Part shown: positions 1 through 20,985 of the stretch, piece by piece
Layout: the number at the start of each line of letters is the position of its first letter
Numbering within the stretch: position 1 is the first letter of the stretch
Source of the DNA: a virus
DNA length: 20,985 bases
Strand: one strand, 5' to 3'
Virus record (IMG/VR): IMGVR_UViG_3300025128_000427
Span: 1-20,985 of that record
Position numbers and translations under genes: made by a program
The notes under the pieces: model-generated
Told to the model about the DNA's origin: nothing
Seen by the model: only the letters and a program-made list of their open reading frames with translations
Database searches by the model: none

Positions 1-1576
1 CTTCTTCAAACCATTCCTCCAGTTCTTCTATTGTTTCAAATTCTAAAAATTCCGTAGGCGCTTCTTCAAAAACTTCAGTAAGTTGTTCATGTTCAAAATT
101 AAACATAAGGTCTTCTTCCGAAGCAATAAGCGTATACTCTTGTTCAGGCTCAAATAGATAAACTTCTTCATATGTTTCTTCATACACTTCTTCATATGTT
201 TCTTCTAAGTAAACCTCTTCATAGACTTCTTCATATGTTTCTAAGTAAACTTCTTCATAGACTTCTTCGTACACTTCTTCTAAGTAAGTCTCTTCGTATG
301 TTTCTTCGTATGTTTCTAAGTAAACTTCTTCCTCAAATATTCTCTGTTCTTCTTGCCAAGCTAATTCTTCAGCAGCCCAGATAGCTTCTTGCTCTATATC
401 ATATTCATCCATTAATACATCTACATCATCATAAGAGTCCATGGTCGTTGTTTCCCATTCAACCATACCTTCATCACTAAATTCTACATCTGTGCCAAAC
501 CACTCATCGACTTGTTCCTGACCAAACTGTTCTACATCTAACTCGTACCAATCCTCATCCGTGAAACCTTCACAGGCGTTTTCATAACAAGGATCATTTG
601 GGTCCAACCATTCATCGTATTCTTGGTCATACCACATATCATCTTCGGTATACCCATAGTCATAGTTCTCTTCATAAGAAGTGTCATAAACAAGAGTTTC
701 AACTACATAACCAGGACACGACACAGAAGACTGAGGGTTTTGAGTACATTCATAATCAAACAAATCATCCCAATAACTAGGGCACTGCGTTGAATACAAC
801 CCATCTAAACCACATTGTTGTGTTAAATAAGCGGCAGCATAGCCTGGACAAGCAGTATTATTTAAAGCACTGGTACAGTCTAAAGCATTCCCAGAACCTA
901 ACCCATATAAAGAACCACCATCCTCCAGTAAAGTATTGTAGGAATTACTGCTAGAGTTCCAATCATAACTTACACAAGTTCCTGAAATATTAGTAGTGCC
1001 TGTATTACACTTATCAAAAAATAAGTAAGTATAAATATCTGAAGTAGTTGGACCCTGCTCTCCAATAAGAACGTCATGTGTTTGAATATCCAATTCACCA
1101 TATCTATATTCAAATGTGTTATTGGGATATAACCAGACTTCTATACTGTTATCAGAATTGGCACGATTATATTCCCTCATGTTATACCAGCCAAAAATAG
1201 TATAATCATCAAAGGCTTTAGCCCTCATAGCTGAACCGCCATCTTTTATCAGGTCAGTCCAGAATGGAAATAAAGTATTGGTGTATTGAGGCAGTGGGTC
1301 GGGGGTGTAGTCCCCACAATAACTGCCCGTCAGGTTAAAATGCAGACAACCATTGGTAGCCATTCTTGCTTGGGTAAAATCATTACCATAAAAGGTAAAG
1401 GTAAAGCCTAAGTCAAAAGCTGCCGAAACTGCATCATCATTTGAACCTAATCCTGTAGAACCCGCTGAATTGGTTTGTAAATCGTATAGGGGTTGGTTTG
1501 ATTCGTAAATGTATGTTGCGTTAACTGTAGGGACAAACAAAAACGCAAATAAGCTAACTGCCCTTATTAAATTCAC
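1..1576 (-). CDS. Exported protein with nidogen-like domain, CPGY cysteine motifs and acidic Glu/Tyr/Val repeats (3' end cut by window edge)
   Basis: The frame is open for 525 codons from a GTG at 1576 to the left edge, with no stop. AGAGGA lies about 10 bases upstream of the GTG, and the gene overlaps the preceding one by 23 bases. Residues 1-20 form a signal peptide (hydrophobic AVSLFAFLFV, then VNA before TYIYES). Residues about 45-165 resemble a nidogen-like (NIDO) beta domain: FTFTFYGNDF, ATNGCLHF, LFPFWTDL, then IEVWLYPNN and FEYRYG. Residues about 230-295 hold cysteine motifs of CPGY or CPSY type. The rest is very acidic and ends in tandem EEVYEETY-like repeats. It is inferred to be exported to the periplasm or cell surface. 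No enzymatic motif is seen and the function is unknown. A tail or adhesin component is an alternative, although a signal peptide argues against a cytoplasmically assembled virion part. Confidence 0.85.
   Translation of the reverse strand, partial: MNLIRAVSLFAFLFVPTVNATYIYESNQPLYDLQTNSAGSTGLGSNDDAVSAAFDLGFTFTFYGNDFTQARMATNGCLHFNLTGSYCGDYTPDPLPQYTNTLFPFWTDLIKDGGSAMRAKAFDDYTIFGWYNMREYNRANSDNSIEVWLYPNNTFEYRYGELDIQTHDVLIGEQGPTTSDIYTYLFFDKCNTGTTNISGTCVSYDWNSSSNSYNTLLEDGGSLYGLGSGNALDCTSALNNTACPGYAAAYLTQQCGLDGLYSTQCPSYWDDLFDYECTQNPQSSVSCPGYVVETLVYDTSYEENYDYGYTEDDMWYDQEYDEWLDPNDPCYENACEGFTDEDWYELDVEQFGQEQVDEWFGTDVEFSDEGMVEWETTTMDSYDDVDVLMDEYDIEQEAIWAAEELAWQEEQRIFEEEVYLETYEETYEETYLEEVYEEVYEEVYLETYEEVYEEVYLEETYEEVYEETYEEVYLFEPEQEYTLIASEEDLMFNFEHEQLTEVFEEAPTEFLEFETIEELEEWFEE
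161..331 (-). repeat. Tandem acidic repeat (Glu-Glu-Val/Thr-Tyr) inside the exported protein
   Basis: On the minus strand GAAGAAGTATATGAAGAAAC-like units recur, encoding YEEVYEE and YEETYLEE patterns with an occasional Leu. The units are short and imperfect. The array would give a highly negatively charged, tyrosine-spaced segment. Boundaries are approximate because the repeats decay on both sides. Confidence 0.8.
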
Positions 1577-2969
1577 GTTTACACGTTCCTCTGGATTTCT
1601 TTATCCCAGAACTATTTAATGTGCCTACACACTGGTTAAGAAAATCGGCTTTAGCCTCTTTATAATCAGGTCGATCCTGTGGGTTTTGTTGCCATGCTAA
1701 ACTAGCTTCTGCCCCGATTTTTCCTTGATACGGACAAGGTGTACCTGCCATAGTCATAGCCTTATGGACTCTTACATCTTGGCAAAGGAGCGCCACACTT
1801 GCGACCTTCATACCCATATCGTACAAATACTTAGATAACTTTAAGCGCTCACAGTTCTCATCCCTTACAGTACGACCAGCCGATAAACCAAACACTTGTC
1901 CTTGAAATGCTCCAGAGCGACCCACAGTACATAGGTCTTGGCTATAACTCATAATACTAGGAGCAATCGCAGAAGCAGGCGGTGCTTTTTGCGTGATATT
2001 TTGATTAATAGTCTGTTCAGACTTTGACTCATTAATGTTTCTATTAGTGTTGTCAGAAGTTGATTCATTTACATTTTTATTATCGGTCTTAACATTTGAA
2101 TCAGAAGTCGACTGATTAACATTAGTGTTCTTATTATCACTAGAGCTAGTGCTGTTATTGGTGTTTGTATTATTACTGGTACTATTGTTTGTGTTGGTAT
2201 TATTACTGGTACTATTGTTTGTGTTTGTATTATTACTGGTACTATTGTTTGTGTTGGTATTATTACTGGTACTATTGTTTGTGTTGGTATTATTATTGGT
2301 GTTGGTACTGTTGCTGGTGCTATTGTTTGTGTTGGTATTATTATTGGTACTATTATTGGTATTTGTACTGTTATTAGTGTTGGTGTTGGCATTAGTGTTA
2401 GTCGAGGTTGACGTATTAGTGTTGGTGTTGGCGTTGGTGTTCGTAGCTGTTGACGTATTGTTATTAGTGTTGGCGTTGGTATTGGTATTAGTCGCAGTTG
2501 AAGTATTAGTGTTGGTGTTGGCGTTGGTGTTCGTATTAGTCGCTGTTGACGTATTGTTATTAGTGTTGGCGTTGGTGTTCGTATTAGTCGCTGTTGACGT
2601 ATTAGTGTTGGTGTTGGCGTTGGTGTTCGTATTAGTCGCTGTTGACGTATTGGTGTTGGTACTCGTATTATTATTGGTGTTAGCGTTGGTATTGGTATTC
2701 GTATTGGTGTTAGTTTGAGTGCCCGTTGTAGTTGTTGTATTAGTATTCGTATTTGTGTTGGCGTTAGTGTTGGTGTTTGTATTGGTGTTGGTATTGGTGT
2801 TGGTGTTTGTTCCAGTTGTAGTAGTAGTTGAAGTTGTAACTAAAGTATTTTGTTCACAATACTCCCCTGTAGTACAATCACCAGTTTGGTCTGCCTTTAC
2901 CGCAGTCGCACTAAATAAAATGCCCCCTATAATCAAATAAAAATATAACCATGTTTTATGTAACTTCAT
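1554..2969 (-). CDS. Exported Thr/Asn-repeat protein with six-cysteine C-terminal domain
   Basis: This encodes 471 residues. Residues 1-26 are a signal peptide (basic start, hydrophobic core YFYLIIGGILF, and AVKA before DQTGD). Residues about 44-325 are almost only Thr, Asn and Ser, with Ala at intervals, and are built from 10- and 16-residue units. Residues 328-471 form a compact domain with six cysteines (for example SQDLCTVG, DENCERLKLSK, GMKVASVALLCQD, AGTPCP), an even number that would suit disulfides outside the cytoplasm. From memory, the KLSK...GMKVAS...LCQD...AGTPCP pattern recurs in marine phage proteins of unknown function. The start overlaps the nuclease gene by 14 bases without a clear ribosome site, so translation is probably coupled. 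The role is unknown; a flexible stalk presenting the C-terminal domain is an inference. Confidence 0.9.
   Translation of the reverse strand: MKLHKTWLYFYLIIGGILFSATAVKADQTGDCTTGEYCEQNTLVTTSTTTTTGTNTNTNTNTNTNTNTNANTNTNTNTTTTTGTQTNTNTNTNTNANTNNNTSTNTNTSTATNTNTNANTNTNTSTATNTNTNANTNNNTSTATNTNTNANTNTNTSTATNTNTNANTNNNTSTATNTNANTNTNTSTSTNTNANTNTNNSTNTNNSTNNNTNTNNSTSNSTNTNNNTNTNNSTSNNTNTNNSTSNNTNTNNSTSNNTNTNNSTSNNTNTNNSTSSSDNKNTNVNQSTSDSNVKTDNKNVNESTSDNTNRNINESKSEQTINQNITQKAPPASAIAPSIMSYSQDLCTVGRSGAFQGQVFGLSAGRTVRDENCERLKLSKYLYDMGMKVASVALLCQDVRVHKAMTMAGTPCPYQGKIGAEASLAWQQNPQDRPDYKEAKADFLNQCVGTLNSSGIKKSRGTCKREFNKGS
2161..2290 (-). repeat. 30-bp tandem repeat (10-residue Asn/Thr/Ser unit)
   Basis: Four near-identical 30-bp units start at 2161, 2191, 2221 and 2251, differing mainly at one base (GTGTTT against GTGTTG on the plus strand). 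They encode repeats of the type NNSTSNNTNT in the exported protein. Degenerate copies continue on both sides. The near identity at DNA level indicates recent expansion or ongoing slippage or recombination. Confidence 0.9.
2401..2690 (-). repeat. 48-bp tandem repeat (16-residue Thr/Ser/Ala/Asn unit)
   Basis: The landmark tgacgtatt (once tgaagtatt) recurs at 2409, 2451, 2499, 2547, 2595 and 2643. Spacing is 48 bases except for one 42-base step. The unit encodes TSTATNTNTNANTNTN, and the last residues alternate between TNTN and TNNN in successive copies, which suggests a 96-bp higher-order duplication. Confidence 0.9.
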
Positions 2970-3378
2970 CTGGATTAAACAGCCTTTTTTCTATTAAAGT
3001 CTGACGATTAACTAAATGCTCATCTTCGATGTCTTTTTTGCTTTGTCCTTCGTATTTAACGGCAAGAGACTCGTCAACCATTGTTAGGTTTATATTAGTG
3101 CCTTCAACATACATTTCACCCAGGACACGACCAAACTTACCTTTTTTGTCCCGATGAGTTTTAATAACAACCGGGCCTTTTGATAAAGCATCTATGAGAT
3201 ATTTTTTACTCATTAATCCCCTAACCTTTTCGTCTTTGTTTCGGGTTCTGCTTTCTGGGGTGTCAATACCATATAGGCGAACACGACTGGCATAATGAAT
3301 AGAAAAACCAAGATCAATAACAACATCAACAGTGTCGCCATCCACCACCCTTTTAACTTCACAGCTATATTCGTACAT
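2956..3378 (-). CDS. Thermonuclease (staphylococcal nuclease-like, SNase fold)
   Basis: This is a 140-residue calcium-dependent phosphodiesterase-type nuclease. All key residues of the staphylococcal nuclease family are present: VVDGDT with Asp15, RLYGIDTPE with Arg34, Asp39, Thr40 and Glu42, and KFGR with Arg84. These match Asp21, Arg35, Asp40, Thr41, Glu43 and Arg87 of the S. aureus enzyme. The ATG at 3378 is chosen because it shares its A with the TAA of the preceding small gene (TAATG). A longer version from a TTG at 3435 would add 19 residues that overlap that gene. No signal peptide is seen with this start. In phages such nucleases may degrade host DNA or act in packaging or lysis; the position after small membrane proteins does not settle this. 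Confidence 0.9.
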   Translation of the reverse strand: MYEYSCEVKRVVDGDTVDVVIDLGFSIHYASRVRLYGIDTPESRTRNKDEKVRGLMSKKYLIDALSKGPVVIKTHRDKKGKFGRVLGEMYVEGTNINLTMVDESLAVKYEGQSKKDIEDEHLVNRQTLIEKRLFNPDEVT

Positions 3379-3509
3379 TACAACCAACCAAAAGCATGGA
3401 ACAAGTCCCAAAGGACATAGATAAAACAAATCCAAAATGCCTTACGATAGAAAACATATTTATTGTAAATAGCGTCAGGTATTTTGCCAAGTTTATATAA
3501 TTCTTCCAC
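3378..3509 (-). CDS. Small membrane protein, 43 residues, possibly the second half of a TAG-interrupted gene
   Basis: GTG at 3509 follows AGGA by 7 bases and opens 43 codons ending in TAA, which overlaps the nuclease ATG as TAATG. The product has an amphipathic N-terminal part (VEELYKLGKIPDAIYNKY) and one aromatic membrane segment (FWICFIYVLWDLFHAFGWL) at its end. The frame is the same as that of the upstream 55-residue gene and only a TAG and three codons separate them, so it may be the C-terminal half of one 102-codon product. Its place among small membrane proteins suggests a lysis role, but this is an inference. Confidence 0.6.
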   Translation of the reverse strand: MEELYKLGKIPDAIYNKYVFYRKAFWICFIYVLWDLFHAFGWL

Positions 3510-3518
3510 CCATGCTTC

Positions 3519-3686
3519 CTACCCCTTGTCCTTTGCTTTGCCTATGTTCAGGGCACATATATCAATAAACTTATAGAGCTTACCGATCCATACATCGTCT
3601 TTAGGTGTTTTAGTCACAGCAGCAATTAAACTGCTCACACTGATTATTGCCATTATTAAGGCTAAAAAATTTGCAAATGTTTGCAT
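3519..3686 (-). CDS. Small single-span membrane protein, holin-like
   Basis: This encodes 55 residues from an ATG with a strong AGGAG 7 bases upstream. Residues about 4-25 form a membrane helix (FANFLALIMAIISVSSLIAA), followed by a charged tail (KTPKDDVWIGKLYKFID...KAKDKG). It ends at TAG, beyond which the same frame stays open to 3378. Size, topology and position in a run of three small membrane proteins fit a holin or holin-associated protein. No sequence signature proves this. Confidence 0.7.
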   Translation of the reverse strand: MQTFANFLALIMAIISVSSLIAAVTKTPKDDVWIGKLYKFIDICALNIGKAKDKG

Positions 3687-3710
3687 TCTTTATCTCCTAT
3701 TATTAAAAAA

Positions 3711-3881
3711 TTATGTTCCAAATATTATTCCTGCCATTCCAACCACTAAGGTAATCAGTGTGGCAACAATAAAGTGTTCAAGTCTTTTGACTCTGTTGAT
3801 GACTTCCAGCCAACGCTCTGCACAGACAGCTTCGTGGCTCTCTATTTTGGTATTAAGTGTGGCCACAGTCATCTTGCTCAT
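3711..3881 (-). CDS. Small coiled-coil plus C-terminal membrane helix protein (XhlA-like arrangement)
   Basis: This encodes 56 residues. The start overlaps the oxygenase stop as ATGA, and GGAGG lies just upstream inside that gene. Residues about 10-36 are a charged helix (TKIESHEAVCAERWLEVINR) and residues about 38-55 a membrane helix (HFIVATLITLVVGMAGIIF). This layout resembles XhlA-type proteins of phage lysis cassettes, a known small family with an amphipathic N-terminus and a C-terminal anchor. Assignment rests on architecture, not on conserved residues. Confidence 0.7.
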   Translation of the reverse strand: MSKMTVATLNTKIESHEAVCAERWLEVINRVKRLEHFIVATLITLVVGMAGIIFGT

Positions 3882-4654
3882 GCAGCCTCCTCAACCTCCC
3901 AACAGTTCATATTGGAAGCCACTGTTCGTCTTTCGCCTTCGCCCCTAAATGGATAAACCATGTGCGATAGCCAAGCAGGAAAAATATATAACTTGCCGAC
4001 TTCGGGCTTTACTTCAAAACTTTGTGGTGGTCTAAGTCGTTCCACATTCATTATCTCGTTACGCCCATAGTTAAAGCATAAGTAACCATCACAAACCCCT
4101 GAAGAATTATATTTACTATATAACGAATCCCCAGCAGTCGGTTGATCGAGTATTTGTTGTGGCACTTTAGTCCAAGAAGTTGTCGATAGTCCCATAATGG
4201 TTTTCGTTCCATGATCGTGTATCGGGTTGTAATCGCCCGCATAACTATGCACTGACCAAGTTTCATCAACCGCCACTTGTCTGTTCTTAGATAACATAGA
4301 CCCTGTGTTTTGCATAAAATGATTGATGTATTGTGCACCCAAACTGGTTATAAACTTAGAATAAGACCTAACCTTTTCATGCTCTGGGTCCATGTTTAAT
4401 TGCTCACCATGAGCAATCTGCCCTACTAGAGTACCTGCTAATGATTCTTTGTCCTCGGATTCTCGTAATTCATCCAAGTATTCGTTTAAATCATTAACCA
4501 TTGCCTCTGGCATCTGGGTTTCCAATACGAAAACCGCAGGCATATTCCAGATATTGACATTAATATCTGTCTCTTCAACAGGCTTCGCTTCCTTCTTATC
4601 AGAATTATCATCCCAATAAACGAAATCTGTATCAGGCTCCTTCTTCTTAGCCAT
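3878..4654 (-). CDS. 2OG-Fe(II) oxygenase-like protein
   Basis: This encodes 258 residues. The double-stranded beta-helix metal site is visible as YNPIHDHG (His146-Asp147-His148) and a distal WLSHMVYPF (His231), followed by ERRTVASN with Arg242 and Arg243, one of which would bind the 2-oxoglutarate carboxylate. The common proximal motif is HxD. Here it reads His-Asp-His, which resembles the HxH form I associate with one phage and bacterial subfamily. The N-terminal 30 residues are charged and probably flexible. In this family the reaction is hydroxylation of a protein or small molecule with 2-oxoglutarate and oxygen; the substrate is unknown. The gene lies between tail and lysis genes. No clear ribosome site is seen before the ATG. 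Confidence 0.8.
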   Translation of the reverse strand: MAKKKEPDTDFVYWDDNSDKKEAKPVEETDINVNIWNMPAVFVLETQMPEAMVNDLNEYLDELRESEDKESLAGTLVGQIAHGEQLNMDPEHEKVRSYSKFITSLGAQYINHFMQNTGSMLSKNRQVAVDETWSVHSYAGDYNPIHDHGTKTIMGLSTTSWTKVPQQILDQPTAGDSLYSKYNSSGVCDGYLCFNYGRNEIMNVERLRPPQSFEVKPEVGKLYIFPAWLSHMVYPFRGEGERRTVASNMNCWEVEEAA

Positions 4655-4656
4655 TT

Positions 4657-4995
4657 TTAGCTAGGAATTACATAGTCAGTATCAGGTACAGGATCGTCAG
4701 GCGGACTAGTAATCACGCTATCGTACTGACTGGCGAATATTGTATCCCACTGACTTGTCGGGCAAAGTGCCTTTAGTTCCGATAATGTCCATGAACCTTC
4801 TGCTTTGGGTGTAAAATTCGTAGCCCCTGATACTGGATCAGTCGCGGAAACCTCTGCATTAAAAAAAGACTCGTAATAAGTCGATGGACTAGCGCTTTTA
4901 CTGCCCTGATTATACTTCATCGTAAAATCCCATTTCTGAACTTTGCTGGACTTGTTATAAGGCACAGCTTTCGTTAAAGTTTTTGTTACTGCCAT
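4657..4995 (-). CDS. Conserved-looking small protein of unknown function, 112 residues
   Basis: ATG at 4995 has AGAGGA about 6 bases upstream and the stop lies two bases before the oxygenase gene. The product starts MAVTKTLTKAVPYN and has KVQKWDFTMKYNQG, an aromatic stretch TYYESFF, and an acidic Pro-rich end (PPDDPVPDTDYVIPS). There is no signal peptide or membrane segment. Its position directly after the tail fibre suggests a fibre-associated or chaperone-like accessory protein, but no family is recognised. Confidence 0.75.
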   Translation of the reverse strand: MAVTKTLTKAVPYNKSSKVQKWDFTMKYNQGSKSASPSTYYESFFNAEVSATDPVSGATNFTPKAEGSWTLSELKALCPTSQWDTIFASQYDSVITSPPDDPVPDTDYVIPS

Positions 4996-5008
4996 TGTTT
5001 ATTCCTCT

Positions 5009-8000
5009 TTATTTATCACACTTTTCATGTGCTTTAGATTTTAATTCCTCGACTTCTGACGAGAGTTCTTTCACTGCGTTTATAAGTGGATATACAAAAT
5101 CTGCTGGTGAAATTCTTTGTACATCATCAACACTAGTATCGTTCCAACCACCAAAAGTATCTACACCAACTTCATCAAGAGCAGCTTTTACTTCTTGAGC
5201 AATAAGTCCGTGTTTTAGTTTACCACTGTCTGCTTTATTTTCTTCTGCGTTATAGTGTTCTGTAAGGCTTGGGTCAACTTCTTGTGATGGTTTTAGTTCG
5301 TATGTCGCAGGTCTTAGTTTGTTGATAAACTCTAGTCCTAACGTATCTGTGTTTATATTCTTTTTAAGCCTTTCATCTGAAGTCCAAGACCAAGAACTAC
5401 CGCCTGCAAAACCTGTACTGACATTATTACCACCAACACCAATATATGCCGTATTATTTGCAGTTAATGTTAGGTCGTTTCCAAGACCAATTCTGCTTCC
5501 AGAATCAGTTGCTTGTACATCACAATTGTGACCAACACATACATTATCACTACCTGTCGTACAAGTATCGCCTGCAGTTGCACCAATAAATGTATTGTCT
5601 CCGCCTGTAGTTACTGCTGAACCTGAATTAGAACCCACGGCTGTGTTATTTGCGCCAGTTGTATCAGCACTTAAAGTTGATCTACCGATTCCGACATTAT
5701 GATTGGCTGTATTAACATCCAAAGAATAAGTACCGATTGCAACACAATCTGTACCCGTTGTGATTGCATCTAAAGCTAAATACCCCATAGCAATATTACC
5801 AGTTCCTGTGGTGCAAGCACGCAAAGCACTGTTACCAACAGCTACATTTTCTGAGCCTGTGGTGTTTGAATACAATGCGTTCCAACCAACTGCTGTATTA
5901 TTTGTCGAAGTGGTGTTTGATGTTAAAGCACCATAACCTACTGCTGTGTTGTTAGATGCGGTTGTATTAGCGTCTAAAGCATTTGTTCCCACAGCAGTGT
6001 TTCCAGCGCCTGTGGTGTTTGCCGTCATCGCAGAGTGTCCAATTGCGGTGTTGTTATCTGCTGTGGTGTTGGCATCAAGGCAATAAGCACCCACTGCAAC
6101 TAAACCAGCACCTGTGGTGTTAACTTGTAATGCTCCTTTACCCACTGCTGTATTAGCGCTTGCTGTCGTGTTAGCAGTCAACGCTTCAAAACCAATCGCA
6201 GTATTAGAATTTGCTGTTGTGGTTGCTGCTAATGTTTTATATCCCATTGCAACATTGTCCTCACCAGTTGTTTGTAACAACATGGAGTTCCAACCCACTG
6301 CTGTATTATTTGTCGCAGTGGTGTTTGCTCCAAGTGCGTTGTGTCCAATAGCTGTTAAGTAATTACCTGTGGTTGCTGCATCTAGTGCTGCGTAACCCAC
6401 TGCGGTGTTTTGTCCACCTGTGGTGTTTGCTCCTAAAGAACTTATACCAACAGCAACATTAGCTGTTCCTGTGGTATTAGCTGTCATAGAGGAATGACCT
6501 ATTGCTGTGTTATTAGATGCTGTTGTTTGAGCATCTAAAGCGAGTCCGCCTATTGCAACATTAGCTGTGCCAGTTGTTAAAGAAGCGGCTGCACCTTTAC
6601 CAATCGCTACATTATGTGTATCTGCATCCGATGTATAGTTAAATGCTGTTAATGCGTTATAACCAACCGCTACATTAGAAGCGCCTTGTGTATTTGCGTC
6701 TAGTGCTGCTGCACCAACTGCTACATTCGAGCCACCTGTGGTGTTTGCTCCTAAAGCCTGATCGCCTACTGCTGTGTTACTCGCTCCTGTGGTATTGGCT
6801 CCAAGAACATCATTACCAACTCCTGTGTTATAACTAGCCGTTGTTATTGTTTTTAACGCACTAGCACCTACGCCAACATTTCTTGTTCCTGTGGTGTTTG
6901 CTAACAAAGCATCTTTACCGATTGCTGTGTTACTATTCGCTGTCGTGTTTGCTGCTAAAGCAGATGTACCAAGTGCAACATTCGCTGTACCTGTAGTGTT
7001 TGCTCCTAAAGAACCATAACCAACCGCTACGTTATTTGATGCTGTAGTGTTTGCATCTAAAGCTGCATTACCAACTGCTACATTTGATGCGCCTGTGGTG
7101 TTTGCTACCATTGCGTTCAAACCAATAGCCACATTGTTAGATGCTGTCGTGTTCGCTCCTAAAGCTGCATAACCAATACCTGTGTTGTTAGAGCCTGTGG
7201 TGTTCGCATCCATTGCTAAAGAACCCATAACAACATTATTATCACCTGTGGTGTTTGCTGCTAGAGATGACCTTCCAATAGCTGTGTTGTTTGAAGCAGT
7301 TGTATTTGCTGCTAAGGCTTCTCTTCCTACGGCTACATTATCCGCTCCTGAAGTATTAACATATAAAGCACCTCTACCTATTCCAATATTTGAATCGGCT
7401 GTGGTGTTTGCTCCTAGAGCATCTAAACCAACTGCAACATTTGAGCCACCAGTTGTATTCGCATCAAGAGCGTTAGTACCTATAGCAACATTGTTTGATC
7501 CCGTTGTAAGAACGCCAGCAGCAGCATCGCCCACTGCCACATTGTCCGAGCCAGTTGTAAACGCATCAAGAGCGTTCTCCCCTACGGCAACATTGTTTGT
7601 TCCTGTGGTCATGGCTGTACCGAGTGCGCCAGAACCCAGTCCGATATTACCTGTACCGCCTGTCATATCGAGTACGTCAGTTACGGCAGCACCTGCTCCC
7701 GCGCCATCAGCGACCACCATCTTGATTCCGCCATTCGGAATAACGACATTAGCGCCTGTGCCTTGAGATATTGTTACTTGATAACCCGCACTATTTTGAA
7801 TAATCCAAGTTTTATTAACGGTATTCGGTGCGAGAGTTACGGTGTTGGTTGCGGTGATTGAGCCTGCAAGAGTAAGAGAATAGGCCCTGGCGGCATCTGA
7901 GGTGCCGTCTTGCATGGTAATGGTATGGGAAGTTCCAGTAATTGTTTCGGAACCACTGCCCCAGGCCTCTGCGATGAGCTCTAAATTTGTGTTGGTTGAT

Positions 8001-8071
8001 GTGCCCCAGGTTCCCGATTCGTCACCTGTAGCAATTTCTTTTAATCTTAGATCGTTTACATAGGTTGCCAT
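5009..8071 (-). CDS. Tail fibre with long beta repeat shaft and C-terminal peptidase S74 chaperone domain
   Basis: This encodes 1020 residues. Residues 1-135 form the N-terminal attachment region (ATYVNDLRLKEIATGDESG, then ITATNTVTLAPNTV), a type I recall from many marine phage fibres. Residues about 142-872 are about 42 copies of a 17-residue repeat, typically NNTAVG..AL.ANTTGA, resembling the trimeric left-handed beta-roll repeats of YadA-type adhesins. Residues 898-1020 are a peptidase S74 intramolecular chaperone: SDERLKKNI at the expected self-cleavage site, LRPATYELK, KHGLIAQEV and a final coiled coil. In this family the domain drives trimer folding and is then released by autocleavage, here predicted just before Ser898. 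AGAGG precedes the ATG by 7 bases. It probably binds the host receptor. Confidence 0.92.
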   Translation of the reverse strand: MATYVNDLRLKEIATGDESGTWGTSTNTNLELIAEAWGSGSETITGTSHTITMQDGTSDAARAYSLTLAGSITATNTVTLAPNTVNKTWIIQNSAGYQVTISQGTGANVVIPNGGIKMVVADGAGAGAAVTDVLDMTGGTGNIGLGSGALGTAMTTGTNNVAVGENALDAFTTGSDNVAVGDAAAGVLTTGSNNVAIGTNALDANTTGGSNVAVGLDALGANTTADSNIGIGRGALYVNTSGADNVAVGREALAANTTASNNTAIGRSSLAANTTGDNNVVMGSLAMDANTTGSNNTGIGYAALGANTTASNNVAIGLNAMVANTTGASNVAVGNAALDANTTASNNVAVGYGSLGANTTGTANVALGTSALAANTTANSNTAIGKDALLANTTGTRNVGVGASALKTITTASYNTGVGNDVLGANTTGASNTAVGDQALGANTTGGSNVAVGAAALDANTQGASNVAVGYNALTAFNYTSDADTHNVAIGKGAAASLTTGTANVAIGGLALDAQTTASNNTAIGHSSMTANTTGTANVAVGISSLGANTTGGQNTAVGYAALDAATTGNYLTAIGHNALGANTTATNNTAVGWNSMLLQTTGEDNVAMGYKTLAATTTANSNTAIGFEALTANTTASANTAVGKGALQVNTTGAGLVAVGAYCLDANTTADNNTAIGHSAMTANTTGAGNTAVGTNALDANTTASNNTAVGYGALTSNTTSTNNTAVGWNALYSNTTGSENVAVGNSALRACTTGTGNIAMGYLALDAITTGTDCVAIGTYSLDVNTANHNVGIGRSTLSADTTGANNTAVGSNSGSAVTTGGDNTFIGATAGDTCTTGSDNVCVGHNCDVQATDSGSRIGLGNDLTLTANNTAYIGVGGNNVSTGFAGGSSWSWTSDERLKKNINTDTLGLEFINKLRPATYELKPSQEVDPSLTEHYNAEENKADSGKLKHGLIAQEVKAALDEVGVDTFGGWNDTSVDDVQRISPADFVYPLINAVKELSSEVEELKSKAHEKCDK
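5456..7648 (-). repeat. About 42 tandem 51-bp (17-residue) fibre shaft repeats
   Basis: The unit alternates a beta strand ([NS]N[VT]AVG or AIG) with a turn (ALDANTTG, SLAANTTA). Nearly all copies keep exactly 17 residues. Exceptions include one 22-residue copy (about residue 465, with FNYTSDADTH) and a few 16-residue copies. DNA identity between copies is only moderate, so the array is old and selected at protein level. Confidence 0.9.
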
Positions 8072-10383: not shown

Positions 10384-11046
10384 TTATTGTTGTTGAGGAT
10401 TAACAAAAACCCTTGGTCTATCAAAACGGTTTTCGTCTCTTGTGGCTCTTCCTTCCATTAATGTGGTTGTTCTAACTAGGTTTTCCTGAAAACGTTGCTC
10501 AAACATATTAGTCTCAGTAAGCTCCTGCTTCATAAAAATACTGGCCTCTACTAAAGAACCGTATAGCAATAAATCCGGGGTATTGTCTGAAATCCAAGTC
10601 GTACCACTGTCCCCTGCTGCGGTTAATGAGGCGGGTTGATACAGATAATGTAGCTCAAAAGTTAGGTTAGCGTTCGGTGTTGGCGCTAAAATAAAGGTGT
10701 CATCATCAAACTGACCATAGTATTTAGGTACCCCGGTTGTTGCAGCAGCTCGTATGTAATTGCGCATAAAACTAGGGTGCTTTAATAATAAATAAGTGTA
10801 CTCACTATCACTGTTTAAAACAGCTAAACTTAAAGGAGCCACGAAATCTGTGGGTGATGAAAGGTAGGGGTTCCCGGATGCAGCGGTTCCAGTAACGTTT
10901 TTACGAAACACATTAAGTTCAATTGTATTAAATATACGGTTCTCCGCCTGTTTAATAAAGGTGTCAAGCGTATTGGTAAACGTGGTCTCAGAATTATCCA
11001 TATAATTCTGAATCGCTGTTTTCATTCCACTATAGGTAAAACTCAT
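10384..11046 (-). CDS. Adaptor or tail-tube-like virion protein, 220 residues
   Basis: It begins with helices (YSGMKTAIQNYMDNSETTFT, FIKQAENRIFN), then FRKNVTGTAASGNPYLSSP, DFVAPLSLAV, TGVPKYYGQFDDDTFILAP, FELHYLYQPASL and a helical end with LLLYGSLVEASIFMKQE. This order resembles the adaptor or tail tubular A-like proteins that bind beneath the portal in short-tailed phages, and I recall close look-alikes in marine phages. The ATG overlaps the upstream TGA as ATGA. Confidence 0.8.
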   Translation of the reverse strand: MSFTYSGMKTAIQNYMDNSETTFTNTLDTFIKQAENRIFNTIELNVFRKNVTGTAASGNPYLSSPTDFVAPLSLAVLNSDSEYTYLLLKHPSFMRNYIRAAATTGVPKYYGQFDDDTFILAPTPNANLTFELHYLYQPASLTAAGDSGTTWISDNTPDLLLYGSLVEASIFMKQELTETNMFEQRFQENLVRTTTLMEGRATRDENRFDRPRVFVNPQQQ

Positions 11047-11804
11047 GTTGTCGGCCCTGCGGTTACTGTAGAACCACCACCAGTAATATCACCGGTAGTA
11101 GCGGTTCCTGTTGAAGTAAATTTATATTCGTTGCTATCCACAACCGTTATTGTATACCCATCAGAGCTTTCAAGCACAGTTGTTGTTATTCCATCAAAAG
11201 CCTCGGTACTACGAAAACGAACGGTATCCCCTGTGGTTCTAACATGTTTAAACTCGGTTACACGAATCACTGCATTTGCTCCAGAGGCTTCAGCTCTAAA
11301 AGGGTTTAATGGTAAAAGCGCTTGTGCCGGACCTACTGAAACAAAGGGTCCTGCACCCCTTGCCCCACTTGTGCCGGTTCCAGAAACAGCAGAGAAGGTA
11401 TAGGTGTCGTCATCTACTTTTGTAATTGAATAAGCATCTGGATCAGTCAATGTTGCAACAGTAAACCCATCGAACACTTCTGCTCCTCTAAAGCGTACTT
11501 TATCCCCGGTGCTTCGACCATGATCGTCTTCAAAAACTTTAATAACCGCACTCCCCGCTGTTGAAAGAAAGGGGTTGTTGGTCAACAAAGCCTCTGCAAC
11601 GGGTTCTGTTCTAGCGGGACGGGGGTTGCGCAGAGCTACTGGGTCCGCTGCAAAATGAGGCGGGTTTAATTGAGGTTGTTTTGGACTCCATTGATCGGGC
11701 CCAACTAATAAGCCGTCCCAGGTCATTTTCATGTCCCTTAAACGGTAACGGAACCCCGATATATCACATATACCCCATGCTTTTTTCCCCGCTGCAAAAG
11801 CCAT
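11043..11804 (-). CDS. Virion protein with a duplicated beta domain and a zinc-ribbon-like N-terminus lacking its cysteines
   Basis: This encodes 253 residues. Residues 1-50 (KKAWGICDISGFRYRLRDMK, then TWDGLLVGPDQW) have the layout of a short N-terminal ribbon I recall from related phage proteins, but only one cysteine remains, so zinc binding is unlikely. Two copies of one beta domain follow, starting with NPF at residues 77 and 167. They share AVIKV or AVIRV, TGDKVRFR or TGDTVRFR, FDG, YSIT or YTIT, VDDDTYTF or VDSNEYKF, and a Thr/Gly tail. The start overlaps the upstream stop as TAATG. It lies between two adaptor-like genes, so a connector or tail role is probable. Confidence 0.8.
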   Translation of the reverse strand: MAFAAGKKAWGICDISGFRYRLRDMKMTWDGLLVGPDQWSPKQPQLNPPHFAADPVALRNPRPARTEPVAEALLTNNPFLSTAGSAVIKVFEDDHGRSTGDKVRFRGAEVFDGFTVATLTDPDAYSITKVDDDTYTFSAVSGTGTSGARGAGPFVSVGPAQALLPLNPFRAEASGANAVIRVTEFKHVRTTGDTVRFRSTEAFDGITTTVLESSDGYTITVVDSNEYKFTSTGTATTGDITGGGSTVTAGPTT

Positions 11805-12475
11805 TAGATGATGGTCCTAGAAGGTAAAAAACGAGAGCTTACCGTGTCAATATTTTCAGAAGCGGCTCGTTGCCATTCCTCGTCATATATTTGTTTGAGC
11901 ATCTGCACGCGGTCTGGAACCCTTTTAATAGCTATATAATAAGCCAGTCCTGCTGCCATCGCGGGGAGAAATTCAAACGTTATTTCTAAAGTATTGGTAT
12001 AAATGCCTGCGTCCTGTATACGCGTCAGCGCGTAATAACGAAAAACGTCCGTAGAGTTTTCCGGCGCCGGATACAAATACAGTTTCGGAGTTATGCTTTT
12101 TTCCACATAAAACTGCGTTGATCTTGATTTAGTGCTTTTGTTCGGAAGGTAATGATAATCACTCCTACTGATCCTGTTTACCTGATAATCAGTAGTGGTG
12201 CTTCCAGAAGTACGACGAATGACCGCAGACAAAACATTAACTAGGTCTGTGTCAAGATCGTAACTGGTGGTGCCTTCGGTCAACGCTTCTGTTCTTTCAA
12301 CAATAAGCCAGAGATTTAAGCCTCGGTTTGCCCATTCAGCAAACATAAGATTAAGGGACCGCCTAGCTGTTTCCAGATCGTAGCCGGTCCTTAATTCTAG
12401 TCCACAACGTTCAAACGATTCTTCGATCAACTCGTCGACGTTTAGATCGAACGTAGTTGTCCCTGACGTGGCCAT
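11804..12475 (-). CDS. Adaptor-like (neck) protein, 223 residues
   Basis: Features include a helical N-terminus (VDELIEESFERCGLELRTGY), ETARRSLNLMFAEWANRGLN, a beta section with the junction LPNKSTKSRSTQFYVEK, then LYLYPAPE, IQDAGIYT and a helical C-terminus (FLPAMAAGLAYYIAIKRVPD, LKQIYDEEWQRAASE). The helical bundle plus beta layout fits the adaptor family that binds the portal ring in podovirus-like virions. The gene is coupled by one-base TAATG overlaps at both ends. Confidence 0.82.
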   Translation of the reverse strand: MATSGTTTFDLNVDELIEESFERCGLELRTGYDLETARRSLNLMFAEWANRGLNLWLIVERTEALTEGTTSYDLDTDLVNVLSAVIRRTSGSTTTDYQVNRISRSDYHYLPNKSTKSRSTQFYVEKSITPKLYLYPAPENSTDVFRYYALTRIQDAGIYTNTLEITFEFLPAMAAGLAYYIAIKRVPDRVQMLKQIYDEEWQRAASENIDTVSSRFLPSRTII

Positions 12476-16634: not shown

Positions 16635-17114
16635 TTAATAATTATGCAGAATTGCTTCTGGGTCGGTTACTTTCGCAATGATTTCGTCATCGTTCAATAT
16701 TTTGACTTCTCCGCCTTCTATTTCAAAGCGAGAGCCGGCATATCGTCCGAACAAAACCCAATCCCCGGCTTCACACCAAGGACCTGTTGGAAATTTGTTT
16801 TCGTCTTGATAAGCGAGTTCACCTGTTTTTAACACATAACCGAGGACCGTGGCTATTTGTTGCCGTTCCACGGTTTTCTCTGTTAAGTATATGCCTCCCT
16901 CTGTGCGGGCTTGGCCGCGGTAGGGAAGAATAAGGATACGCCAACCGGTGGGTTCAGGAAGCTGGCTTAATAGATCAGAAGACAGCTTTTCCGGATTAAG
17001 TTTTTCCTCATCCGTCTTCTTGTTGCCAACTTTTTCATAGGCTTTTTGTAAAGGGGCCTTATTGGCCTCTTCCTGCGCCCACTTTTGTTCAAGGGCGGAA
17101 TTTGCGTCACTCAC
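16635..17114 (-). CDS. GroES-like co-chaperonin (Cpn10 fold)
   Basis: This encodes 159 residues from a GTG start with AGGAG about 9 bases upstream. Residues about 50-150 follow the Cpn10 layout: GWRILILPYRGQARTEGGIY, with GGIYL at 73-77 as the mobile-loop tripeptide region that contacts GroEL; then QIATVLGYVLKTGE, EAGDWVLFGRYAGSRFEIEG, and LNDDEIIAKV. The first 50 residues are an extra charged helical extension absent from bacterial GroES (about 97 residues). By analogy with T4 gp31 it probably works with host GroEL to fold the capsid or another virion protein, which its place beside the scaffold supports. The host-partner role is inferred. Confidence 0.85.
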   Translation of the reverse strand: MSDANSALEQKWAQEEANKAPLQKAYEKVGNKKTDEEKLNPEKLSSDLLSQLPEPTGWRILILPYRGQARTEGGIYLTEKTVERQQIATVLGYVLKTGELAYQDENKFPTGPWCEAGDWVLFGRYAGSRFEIEGGEVKILNDDEIIAKVTDPEAILHNY

Positions 17115-17319: not shown

Positions 17320-19530
17320 TTATCCACTATATGTGTTGAAAAAATCGGGATATATTGGGCCCTTTTCTTCTTTTCTTAGTGGGTCCTTGTGCGGGGGCAA
17401 AGGAAAGGGTTCTGGAACAGGATCAAAGTATCTTGGGTCTATTCCGGAAGGGTATAGACCGGATTGAGCTGTTATTGGAATATCGTAGTTATAAGCTGAA
17501 GCGTCCCCTAAATCTAGTCCGCTTATTCCAGATTGAGCTGCTCCCGTTGACACGCCTCCGCTAAAAGGGGTTGTCCCTCCAAACTGTTCAGGGCCCATCA
17601 TATCGTAAGGGCTCACCGATCCGTATGGGCTTGTATAATCCGTATAGGGCGTATAACTGGTTGGAATCGTGTAATTAGGTGCTGGCACTGGTTCAGTAGG
17701 TGTTGTCTCGCCACCGCCTGTTTCGCCACCGCCACCGGTCGCTTGCAGAGCTGCGGCTATTGCAGAGCTAATTGCTCCGCCTTCACCTAAAGCAGCGTCC
17801 AATGCCGCTTGTACTGAAGAATCCACGCCTTCTTGTCCTAAGTATCCTGACTCTGCCATCAAAGCATTGATCTGATCTGCTGTCATATAACCTGAATCCA
17901 ATAGTGCTTGAATATCTTCCATAGACAAACCTTCTCCGGTTTGTCCTGTTTGAGAGGCTGCGATTGCATCCGTGATCATTTGTTGAATAGTGGCTGGGTC
18001 TACGGCCCCCTCTGTAGCCGCCACTATCATGTCTTGTATTTGTTCTGGTGTTAAGCCGTCAGCGATGCCTTGGGCAATCATTTCTTGTATTTCGGCTTCG
18101 GTCAATCCGCCCAGGGACGCAAGAGTGGCTTGTGCATCAGCGATCATTTGTTGAATAGTAGCTGAGTCTACGACTCCGCCTGTAGCGTCAGCAACCATCT
18201 GTTGTATTTGTTCTGGAGTTAAGCCGTCTTTGAGGGCTTGAGTAATCATGTCTCTTATTTCGGTTTCGGTCAATCCGCCTAGCTCTCCAAGACTGGCTTG
18301 AGAATCAGCGATCATTTGTGCAATAACGGCTGGGTCCATACCACCGGCATATTGTTCGATCATAGTCTGTATTTCTGCTGGAGTTAAGCCGTTAGCAAGC
18401 CCGGCATCAATCATGTCTTGTATTTGCTCTGTGGTGAGTATGCTTTTTTGTGTTTCCTCTTGAGCGGCAGCGACCGCTTGCTCAATTGCAGAATTTATAT
18501 CGGCATCGCTCATACTGTCGCCCATGACAGTTTTAATCATGTCTCTAATCTGATCCTCGGTCATGCCTTGAAGCTGCGCGTTAGCAATCATTTGTTGGAG
18601 CACGTCTTCAGTAACATATTGAGATATGTCATAATCCTTTGTGAAGCTTGTCTTGAAGTCGTCGCCCCATAGTTTCATGGCGTCGCCTATTTGATCATCT
18701 ATGTTAAAATCTTGCAAAGCCGCTAGAATAGATGCGTCTACATCCCCTAGTTGAGCATAATCACCTAAACCAAGGTTCCCCAAAGCTGTTTCAATAGCTG
18801 TATCTACATCCTCTTTTTGAGTATAGCCGCCCATAAGTGATTGAAGATAAGGAGATTCTCCCATTTGTTGAAGAATAGGGTCTAAGTATTCTTGTTTTAA
18901 CGTGCCATCTGGGTTGAACCATTCTGTTTCCGTTGGAGTAGTTGCAGGTAAGTTTGGGTCTGTCTGCGGGTTATCCGGTCTGTCTGGTTCCGCAGGTGTT
19001 TTATTATGCGACAGTACAGGTACAGGGTTTTCTTCGGTGCCGCCTCGTAGCATATAGGTTTCCGCTTTATCAACTGAGAGACTGATAACAGGACCGTCGG
19101 GAAAAGACTTTTTGCTATCAACAACTAGCTCACCAATTACATCCCCTTTTTCTAAATCTATTACTTTTACAAAACCTTTGTCTTTTACAAAATAAGGGTG
19201 GCTATAGGAGGAAACAATACTGTCGCCCTCTTCAAAAAAGACCTCACATCTTGGAGAACCTTCAACTCTCTCTACTCGCGTTACTTTTTGGGTGTCTTCT
19301 GAAGTTGCTACTTCGTCACCTACTTTAAGGTCTCCGGCTAGTATCCAATCATTATTTGCCAACTGTATGTGTTCTTCGGGTCGAGCACATTGTTCCCACT
19401 CTTGTAGGAACTTCCACATAGAATAGTCCTCAAAACCAGGGTCCCCTAGCTGTGGTGGGTTTGCCAACCACGCATTTATTTGTTCAGTTGTAAACTGTTC
19501 TGTTCCGGCGTATGGAGGTTTCTCTGGCAT
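17320..19530 (-). CDS. Large virion-associated protein with N-terminal Hint (intein-like) domain and helical repeats
   Basis: This encodes 736 residues. Residues 1-47 are a short leader. Residues 48-176 are a Hint autoprocessing domain. Residues about 180-360 are polar and helical. Residues about 362-529 hold three 56-residue repeats. The end is Gly-rich, then Pro/Tyr-rich (YTIPTSYTPYTDYTSPYGSV) and closes with PIYPDFFNTYSG. There is no signal peptide or membrane segment. The ATG is fused to the portal stop as TAATG with AAAGGA upstream, so it is co-translated with the portal. Position suggests a head or internal virion protein that may be matured by self-cleavage. No protease, lysozyme or tape-measure motif is recognised. 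Confidence 0.85.
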   Translation of the reverse strand: MPEKPPYAGTEQFTTEQINAWLANPPQLGDPGFEDYSMWKFLQEWEQCARPEEHIQLANNDWILAGDLKVGDEVATSEDTQKVTRVERVEGSPRCEVFFEEGDSIVSSYSHPYFVKDKGFVKVIDLEKGDVIGELVVDSKKSFPDGPVISLSVDKAETYMLRGGTEENPVPVLSHNKTPAEPDRPDNPQTDPNLPATTPTETEWFNPDGTLKQEYLDPILQQMGESPYLQSLMGGYTQKEDVDTAIETALGNLGLGDYAQLGDVDASILAALQDFNIDDQIGDAMKLWGDDFKTSFTKDYDISQYVTEDVLQQMIANAQLQGMTEDQIRDMIKTVMGDSMSDADINSAIEQAVAAAQEETQKSILTTEQIQDMIDAGLANGLTPAEIQTMIEQYAGGMDPAVIAQMIADSQASLGELGGLTETEIRDMITQALKDGLTPEQIQQMVADATGGVVDSATIQQMIADAQATLASLGGLTEAEIQEMIAQGIADGLTPEQIQDMIVAATEGAVDPATIQQMITDAIAASQTGQTGEGLSMEDIQALLDSGYMTADQINALMAESGYLGQEGVDSSVQAALDAALGEGGAISSAIAAALQATGGGGETGGGETTPTEPVPAPNYTIPTSYTPYTDYTSPYGSVSPYDMMGPEQFGGTTPFSGGVSTGAAQSGISGLDLGDASAYNYDIPITAQSGLYPSGIDPRYFDPVPEPFPLPPHKDPLRKEEKGPIYPDFFNTYSG
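17944..18447 (-). repeat. Three 168-bp (56-residue) helical repeats
   Basis: Each unit contains GLTE.EI..MI, a helix, DGLTPEQIQ.M, an Ala/Gly linker, VD.ATIQQMIADAQATL and a short loop. Copies cover residues about 362-417, 418-473 and 474-529; the first is the most diverged. The LTPEQIQ.M helix pairs recall EF-hand or UBA-like helix hairpins, but no calcium loop is present. Confidence 0.85.
19003..19389 (-). other. Hint (hedgehog/intein-type) autoprocessing domain, residues 48-176
   Basis: It opens with Cys48 and LANNDWILAGDLKVGDEV, the usual first block. SSYSHPYFV gives the Ser-x-x-His form of the TxxH motif (Ser108, His111). VISLSVDKAETYML and VLSHN supply the last strands and the terminal His175-Asn176. 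The next residue is Lys177, not Cys, Ser or Thr. At about 129 residues it has no room for a homing endonuclease. Known Hint domains ending in HNK tend to cleave rather than splice; cleavage here is an inference. Confidence 0.85.
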
Positions 19531-20985
19531 TATTTTCCTTTAGGTTGGTTCATTTTTTCACGGGAGATAGAGGCTCTGAGCGCTGCGATGTCTTCTTGGC
19601 TTCTCATCTTCTCTTCGTCGGTTTCTTCCCGTACTTCCATTTTTTCTCGCTCAAGGGCTAATTTGTCTTCAGCAATACGTTTATCGTCTTCGTTCTCTTG
19701 TGATCTTATCATAAGTTCCTGTTGTTTCAATTCCAAAACACCTTCGTTATCTTGAGGAAGGTTCATTACTTCATTGATCCTTGGCATAAGTTCTTCCAAT
19801 AGATCCGCTTCCACCTGGGACTTCAATTGTTCCCTAAGAGGGTTAGGCGGCATAGGTTGTGGTGGCATGCCGCCTTGTTGAGCCATCATTTGCTGTTGCT
19901 GCATCATTTGCTGTTCTTGCATTAGCTGTTGTTGTAATTGCGGGTCCTGCTCTGCTAACTGTTGTACTTGTTGTTCCGCTATCTCCTCTGCTTTAAAAGC
20001 AACGTGTTGAAAAATGTCGGTTAGTAAAGAGGTGGCTACAGGAGGGTTCATAGACGCCATTGGATTTTCTAAAAACGTAATGTGCGATTCAATGTGCGCA
20101 TCGTGATCCTGTTCCGGAAACGCCTGCAAAGGAGAGCCCATCAAAGCCGCCGCATTCTCCAACGCCGGACTTGTCGGTTGTGGGGGCGGTGGATCCGGTA
20201 AGAGTAGCGTTTCAATGTTCTGTGAACCAAGGGCCGTGTACATTCGACGATAGGCTTCTTTAATATTGTGTATGTCTGGATTGCTTTGCACCAGTTGCAG
20301 TTCTTGTTGCGCGAGCGAAATTCGTTGGGCAAAAGAGAAAAAGTTTGGATCAGAGACCGGAATAACATCAACGCGACCATCAAAGTCTTGTTGCTTGATC
20401 ATTTGGTCTCCACCAACTACTTGATAAGGATACTCTGGTGGAAGGAACTCTGAGAACACTCTGGCTAATATTCTAAATTCTGTTTTTTGCGCATAGTGCA
20501 GTCGTTTGTGGACCGCGGACATGACCTTGGTCCCCTGTTCCATAAGCGCTAAGGTGGTACCGACTGCCGCTTGATCGTTGCCCTCACCCACTTGCATGTC
20601 GGTAATGGCGGCGAAGCGTTGTCCGGCTTCAACACAAAAACCCATTAATTGAAATAATGTGCCGCTTGGTTCTTTATAAGGTAGGGGCATCAAGGAATCT
20701 TTTAAGGCGCCTCCTGGTGCGTCTACGTCTCTAAATTCTCCGGGTTCTAAAGGCGTTTCGTCGTCTCTTATTCTTATGCCCCGAGCTTTAAAACCGGCGG
20801 GGAGATTGGACAAGGTTCCTGCGTCTATGAGTTGTCTGAGGGCCGCTGTTGCGGTTCTAGAGAGTCCCCCGATCATGTGAATTAAACCAAAGCCGTAGAA
20901 ACCCAGTCCTGGGAGAAATTTGTAGTGTACAAAATAGGTTATTTTGTGTCTAAGTGGATCGTCTTCATAATAGTTACGTCGAATG
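19530..20985 (-). CDS. Portal protein, N-terminus cut by the window edge
   Basis: 484 residues are visible and the frame runs open past the right edge; the ATG at 20876 is internal. Landmarks are ITYFVHYKFLPGLGFYGFGL, LSRTATAALRQLIDAGTLSN, IRIRDDETPLEPGEFRDVDA, SGTLFQLMGFCVEAGQRFAA, a MQVGEGNDQAAVGTTLALME helix and YPYQVVGGDQMIKQQDFDGR. I recall this series from marine phage portal proteins. The C-terminal third has a Gln/Met tract around residues 340-365 of the visible part, a Pro-rich linker and a long charged coiled coil, as expected for a portal barrel or crown extension. It is co-translated with the next gene through TAATG. Confidence 0.9.
   Translation of the reverse strand, partial: IRRNYYEDDPLRHKITYFVHYKFLPGLGFYGFGLIHMIGGLSRTATAALRQLIDAGTLSNLPAGFKARGIRIRDDETPLEPGEFRDVDAPGGALKDSLMPLPYKEPSGTLFQLMGFCVEAGQRFAAITDMQVGEGNDQAAVGTTLALMEQGTKVMSAVHKRLHYAQKTEFRILARVFSEFLPPEYPYQVVGGDQMIKQQDFDGRVDVIPVSDPNFFSFAQRISLAQQELQLVQSNPDIHNIKEAYRRMYTALGSQNIETLLLPDPPPPQPTSPALENAAALMGSPLQAFPEQDHDAHIESHITFLENPMASMNPPVATSLLTDIFQHVAFKAEEIAEQQVQQLAEQDPQLQQQLMQEQQMMQQQQMMAQQGGMPPQPMPPNPLREQLKSQVEADLLEELMPRINEVMNLPQDNEGVLELKQQELMIRSQENEDDKRIAEDKLALEREKMEVREETDEEKMRSQEDIAALRASISREKMNQPKGK

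Follow-up and report, generated by a model that had tools for sequence, protein, structure and literature searches.

A 736-residue protein encoded beside the portal gene of an uncultured marine phage is interrupted by a Hint domain, which we read as an autoprocessing module of the A-type BIL kind that would be excised, with its flanks ligated in a sizeable share of molecules, and that would be mobile between genes. A probability of about 0.6 is given to this joint reading. The protein lies in a viral stretch of 20,985 nucleotides (IMG/VR record IMGVR_UViG_3300025128_000427), referred to here as the window. Together with its relatives, the module represents a conserved, mobile and probably active class of phage modules, A-type BIL-like in nature and flanked by lysine.

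The Hint domain and its host gene

The open reading frame of the host protein (17320..19530 (-), from the ORF list and translation) begins with an ATG that overlaps the stop codon of the upstream portal gene (TAATG). The portal gene (19530..20984 (-); phrog_1216, E 5e-34) is truncated at its 5' end by the edge of the window, and the co-chaperonin GroES gene (16635..17114 (-)) forms the other border of a variable portal-GroES interval. An earlier description of the product as a virion-region protein is correct as a statement of gene position, and a location in the virion is plausible.

The codons of Cys48 (TGT, 19387..19389 (-)) and Asn176 (AAT, 19003-19005 (-)) place the 129-residue module at exactly 19003..19389 (-), between an N-extein of residues 1-47 (19390..19530 (-)) and a C-extein of residues 177-736 (17320..19002 (-)). 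Cys48 is module position 1 and the nucleophile of the N-junction. The block-B motif S-x-x-H is S108-Y-S-H111 (19198..19209 (-)), its Ser and His being invariant, and block G is His175-Asn176 at the C-junction (19003..19008 (-); His175 codon CAT, 19006-19008 (-)). The +1 residue is Lys177 (AAA, 19000..19002 (-)). All of these residues stand where a first-pass annotation of the window had placed them, including a +1 residue that is neither Cys, Ser nor Thr.

Residues 48-176 are confirmed as a genuine Hint domain. Scanned alone, the window domain matched PT-HINT (PF07591) with an E value of 1.2e-6 and 29.3-29.6 bits against a cut-off of 27.7; the full-length protein scored 22.7 bits, under that cut-off. 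The family was matched by 11/11 members of alignment A1, and a profile of relatives retrieved the C. thermocellum BIL 2LWY from the PDB (E 5e-14). Foldseek comparison of an AlphaFold model of the module (pLDDT 86, pTM 0.80) with the PDB gave Tetrahymena BIL2 (E 2.1e-8) and 2LWY (E 2.7e-8), with many inteins and Hedgehog Hint domains also among the matches. The first-pass annotation had predicted this domain, to be checked against Hint and intein profiles and abandoned if structure prediction lacked the fold; both PT-HINT and 2LWY were matched and the fold is present in the model, so the prediction stands. For the C-extein, the prediction shows helical repeats and then about 200 residues of low confidence (AlphaFold pLDDT 53 overall, a low value), and profile scans of the window protein found no toxin family in it. 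Matches of the full protein to Lgt1_N, IS256 transposase and ATP-cone (Pfam/NCBIfam) fell below cut-offs on the helical repeats and were taken as chance or low complexity.

The closest known system is that of the A-type BIL domains, with which the window module shares the Hint fold, Cys1, the C-terminal His-Asn, the lack of Cys, Ser or Thr at +1, and residence in hypervariable, non-conserved host proteins; to this, a lysine rule is added here. Every feature accessible from sequence or model agrees with this placement, for which 2LWY was the sole A-type reference BIL compared. The phage modules differ in their setting beside structural genes of uncultured marine phages, in a strong preference for Lys at +1 or +2, and in tandem arrays spaced by a single Lys. 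The best fold match, BIL2 from the BUBL1 locus in Tetrahymena (PDB 6Y75), is eukaryotic, lies in another genomic setting and shows 15% identity. Pretoxin HINT (PF07591) is the best Pfam family for the module, but no toxin domain follows it in the window, and Actinomycetota matches have S, T, C or N at +1. Hedgehog Hog domains are C-terminal, with a sterol-recognition region and no C-terminal Asn reaction. They share the fold (1at0, E 3e-5), and some relatives of the window module are likewise C-terminal after a Gly-rich linker; the window module, in contrast, is internal and ends in His-Asn-Lys, and the relatives keep His-Asn and a short Lys-containing tail.

Inteins have the fold, Cys1, block B and His-Asn in common with the module, and the presence of intein folds among the top structural matches, along with the logic of excision, would suit an ordinary class-1 intein whose junction is unusual. 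However, inteins require Cys, Ser or Thr at +1 and occupy conserved motifs of conserved proteins, whereas the window module has no such +1 residue, spans 129 residues without a homing endonuclease, and is inserted in a variable disordered segment, making this explanation extremely improbable. The earlier remark that the flanks are unlike a conserved enzyme motif is borne out by their mosaic and variable nature and by the existence of Hint-less versions of the gene.

The lysine at the C-terminal junction

To judge from its distribution, the +1 Lys belongs to the module as a conserved element and is not a degenerate residue. Relatives were collected by scans of IMG/VR, the first of which gave 46 loci and the later of which added more. 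The close set comprises 44 distinct DNA modules, of which 43 have Lys at +1 (AAA in 40, AAG in 3), and the +2 and -1 residues vary. All collected phage modules were also reduced at 60% identity to 32 clusters, of which 21 have Lys at +1 and six have it at +2 (I-K in four, A-K and F-K), hence 27/32 at one of the two positions; these counts still include shared ancestry, for which reason no P value is attached to the rule. The remaining clusters have Arg (one), an intein-like Cys (three) or V-Y (one), and at +3 to +10 the frequency of Lys across the 32 clusters is 0-7%. The rule is not a search artefact, because an HNK-containing peptide seeded the first scan alone and later scans used internal peptides. 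A cellular sample of 13 clusters contained K in three and x-K in three, all from Omnitrophota, and its Actinomycetota members had S, T, C or N. No description of a +1 Lys class, or of this phage module, was found in the literature searched, which excluded the original BIL papers, and the rule is provisionally regarded as new. As a separate observation, PT-HINT at Omnitrophota loci L143, L146, L154, L161, L163, L144 and L164 has HN-K or HN-L-K ends, as opposed to S/T/C/N in the sampled Actinomycetota.

The module itself bears the marks of purifying constraint. Across aligned modules down to 33% identity, Cys1, the block-B His and His-Asn never vary, synonymous codon changes occur at the invariant active-site residues of the close set, and the median dN/dS of 35 modules of equal length is 0.10 (0.08 for less saturated pairs). 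Such constraint speaks against a relic. Variability at the classical block-F Asp position (S/H/D/R/Q) could point to a dead or purely structural Hint fold that no longer reacts, but the invariant catalytic residues with their synonymous changes, as well as a dN/dS of ~0.1, speak against such a loss, which is judged very unlikely.

Proposed excision, ligation and cleavage

Autoprocessing by the module is likely. Cys48 would attack the preceding bond and hold the N-extein as a thioester, and Asn176, aided by His175, would cyclise and thereby cut the bond to Lys177. An amine of the C-extein would then take over the N-extein, with Lys177 conserved for that purpose. The module would thereby be excised, and a sizeable share of molecules would have their flanks joined, giving a protein of ~607 residues, with one- or two-sided cleavage as a side or main product. 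In A-type BILs, which have His-Asn ends and no +1 nucleophile, cleavage dominates, and splicing proceeds by aminolysis, in which the freed C-terminal amine attacks the N-terminal thioester (PMC4031507); one review describes A-type BILs as unable to ligate (PMC7765530). The first-pass label of "splicing-incompetent" goes too far, since A-type BILs without a +1 nucleophile are reported to splice as well as cleave (PMC4031507) and the Lys is conserved.

The junctions of the relatives bear on the choice between excision and simple release. The N-flank is "MA" alone in L042 and L043, and the C-flank is as short as "FK" in L198 and "KTLAP" in L068, with both junctions kept in every case. In 15/32 clusters, the module sits at the extreme C-terminal end, leaving a tail of 2-20 residues, and often follows a Gly-rich stretch; the two junctions are conserved here as well. 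In L121 (ORF 2-7618, residues ~1334-1790), three Hint domains stand in a row with one Lys between each, in the arrangement VHN-K-CFVAGT...VHN-K-CFIKGT...VHN-K-DPLAQTF. One-sided cleavage would leave one junction useless, while excision would not, and the retention of both junctions beside 2-residue flanks, together with the single-Lys spacing in L121, thus favors excision at both ends, possibly with ligation. The release of a short peptide by one-sided cleavage, as envisaged earlier, is a poor fit for this reason. Other relatives form neighboring gene pairs (L115/L116 and L118), each gene ending in its own Hint module with a short K or I-K tail, and some of these genes have tail-fibre or collagen-like N-parts.

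Cleavage could also be the sole activity, with Asn cyclisation and/or thioester hydrolysis at 176/177 and 47/48 splitting off a peptide of 47 residues and leaving a 560-residue protein with Lys at its start. A +1 position without Cys, Ser or Thr, the tendency of reported A-type BILs mostly to cleave (PMC4031507), and a C-extein core that alone matches the product of Hint-less homologues are consistent with such an outcome, but it accounts poorly for the Lys rule, for junctions kept on both sides of 2-residue flanks, and for the single-Lys spacers of L121, and the Hint-less versions show that maturation is possible without cleavage. We regard it as somewhat unlikely that the module does nothing else; cleavage at either end is possible in the window protein.

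Three roles are conceivable for the Lys: that of an amine, that of a charge, or one exerted via the N-terminus that cutting creates. A more specific proposal is that the side chain of the +1 or +2 Lys replaces Cys, Ser or Thr, either because its epsilon-amine attacks the thioester to form an isopeptide or because it assists aminolysis by the alpha-amine, so that phages would splice structural proteins via an amine. That Lys is tolerated at either +1 or +2 is easier to reconcile with a function of the side chain than of the alpha-amine, but the +1 Arg of three contigs (L122-L124) suggests that charge may suffice and speaks for charge rather than the Lys amine; the proposal is unlikely in this form. 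If the Lys rule does reflect chemistry, then a large phage Hint class processes proteins without the Cys, Ser or Thr of inteins at +1, and a testable answer is at hand to the question of how nucleophile-free BILs join their flanks. An amine-based splicing element, if real, would offer protein ligation a new tool. Lys chemistry aside, the findings show that marine phages shuffle hypervariable proteins of the structural region around a probably self-processing module.

Hint-less homologues and mosaic flanks

A search with the C-extein revealed module-free versions of the gene at the same locus, beside portals that are 88-96% identical, which provides the comparison with homologues lacking the insert that the first-pass annotation had proposed. 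The domain is dispensable, because these syntenic homologues exist without it, and the proposed "maturation step" of the virion is accordingly not one that the protein needs. The proteins of L034 (with module) and L178 (without) run in step from DPGQGFNFSDFMTAADAEELFRNMDT onward; before this point, L034 has a 23-residue flank, the module and KLPPPESR, while L178 has an unrelated 34-residue start. The window N-extein shows a weak likeness to the start of the Hint-less L172 (52/5000 shuffles), as does that of L003 (4/5000), so that a single ancestral protein split in two by the insertion is not firmly established. The Hint domain thus appears as a presence/absence feature of a hypervariable N-terminus.

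By comparison with named phages, too, the gene is accessory. The closest relatives of the portal are found in HTVC027P, HTVC023P and DSL-LC04, where other small genes fill the portal-GroES interval, and no annotated counterpart of the Hint protein lies beside the portal in HTVC023P, HTVC027P, DSL-LC04 or CRP-901. No named phage with the Hint protein was found by search, and a single scan of GTDB genomes gave two distant matches alone (26-28% identity). Within the phage group, modules occupy the portal-GroES interval, a position immediately preceding the counterpart of window gene 11804, another ~3 kb beyond the counterpart of gene 8955, and one near the large terminase gene. Six proteins contain two modules, and in five comparable pairs the copies are 77-93% identical to each other versus 85-100% to modules of other phages, which suggests that paired modules were acquired rather than duplicated in place.

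A flank comparison, from which the L025/L071 line was left out as a gapped-alignment artefact, revealed mosaic flanks among relatives. L017 and L018 are alike in N-flank and module and differ in C-flank. Portals that are 99-100% identical accompany modules of 73-78% identity (L021/L007, L036/L007, L027/L009 and L016/L027), and modules of 97% identity accompany portals of 52% (L006/L007). L030 agrees fully with the window type in GroES and capsid protein, but its module has 74% identity and only ~14 residues follow His-Asn. T4-like relatives have a giant structural protein (VrlC/DUF4815, phrog_358) broken up by the module, and the named cyanophage homologues of this protein align in two pieces; collagen-like tail-fibre signatures occur in other relatives. 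Sequence comparison thus shows that recombination has carried the module from one disordered, hypervariable segment to another in proteins of the phage structural region, and has also removed it from such segments.

Such mosaicism, including the L017/L018 pair and the discordance of portals and modules, would also be expected if the module served at the DNA level, as a common stretch through which a hypervariable protein could have its ends swapped, with the chemistry maintained only for the viability of the carrier. Domain swapping at an intein has been suggested for the phiCbK TerL (PMC3556154), and BILs are thought to help rearrange hypervariable surface proteins (PMC3403396). A DNA-level role leaves the Lys rule unexplained in modules whose divergence is too great for recombination (33-38% identity) and does not by itself explain a dN/dS of ~0.1; it is quite unlikely to be the explanation, and it is compatible with, not exclusive of, excision of the module from the protein.

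Several further features were noted in the relatives and in the window. Two Hint subfamilies interrupt what is apparently the same giant T4-like structural protein (VrlC/DUF4815, phrog_358) in L074, L108-L112 and L121-L124. Dockerin-like calcium-loop repeats (e.g. DVNQDGAIDLLDAIW) were seen by eye in the N-flanks of L009, L014, L016 and L027 and in the Hint-less L168 and L170; Pfam gave no confirmation of them. Elsewhere in the window, two SU10-adaptor-like genes (10384-11046 and 11804-12475 (-)) occur in one genome, and genes for an SNase-like nuclease (2956-3435 (-)) and a 2OG-Fe(II) oxygenase (3878-4654 (-)) are present. Long Thr/Asn repeats mark the gene at 1554-2969 (-), and an opposite-strand ORF of 197 residues at 2125-2718 is probably a by-product of the repeats. 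Finally, a 1020-residue tail spike with many repeats (5009-8071 (-)) ends in an intramolecular chaperone of the Peptidase_S74 family, which may be another self-cleaving domain of this phage.
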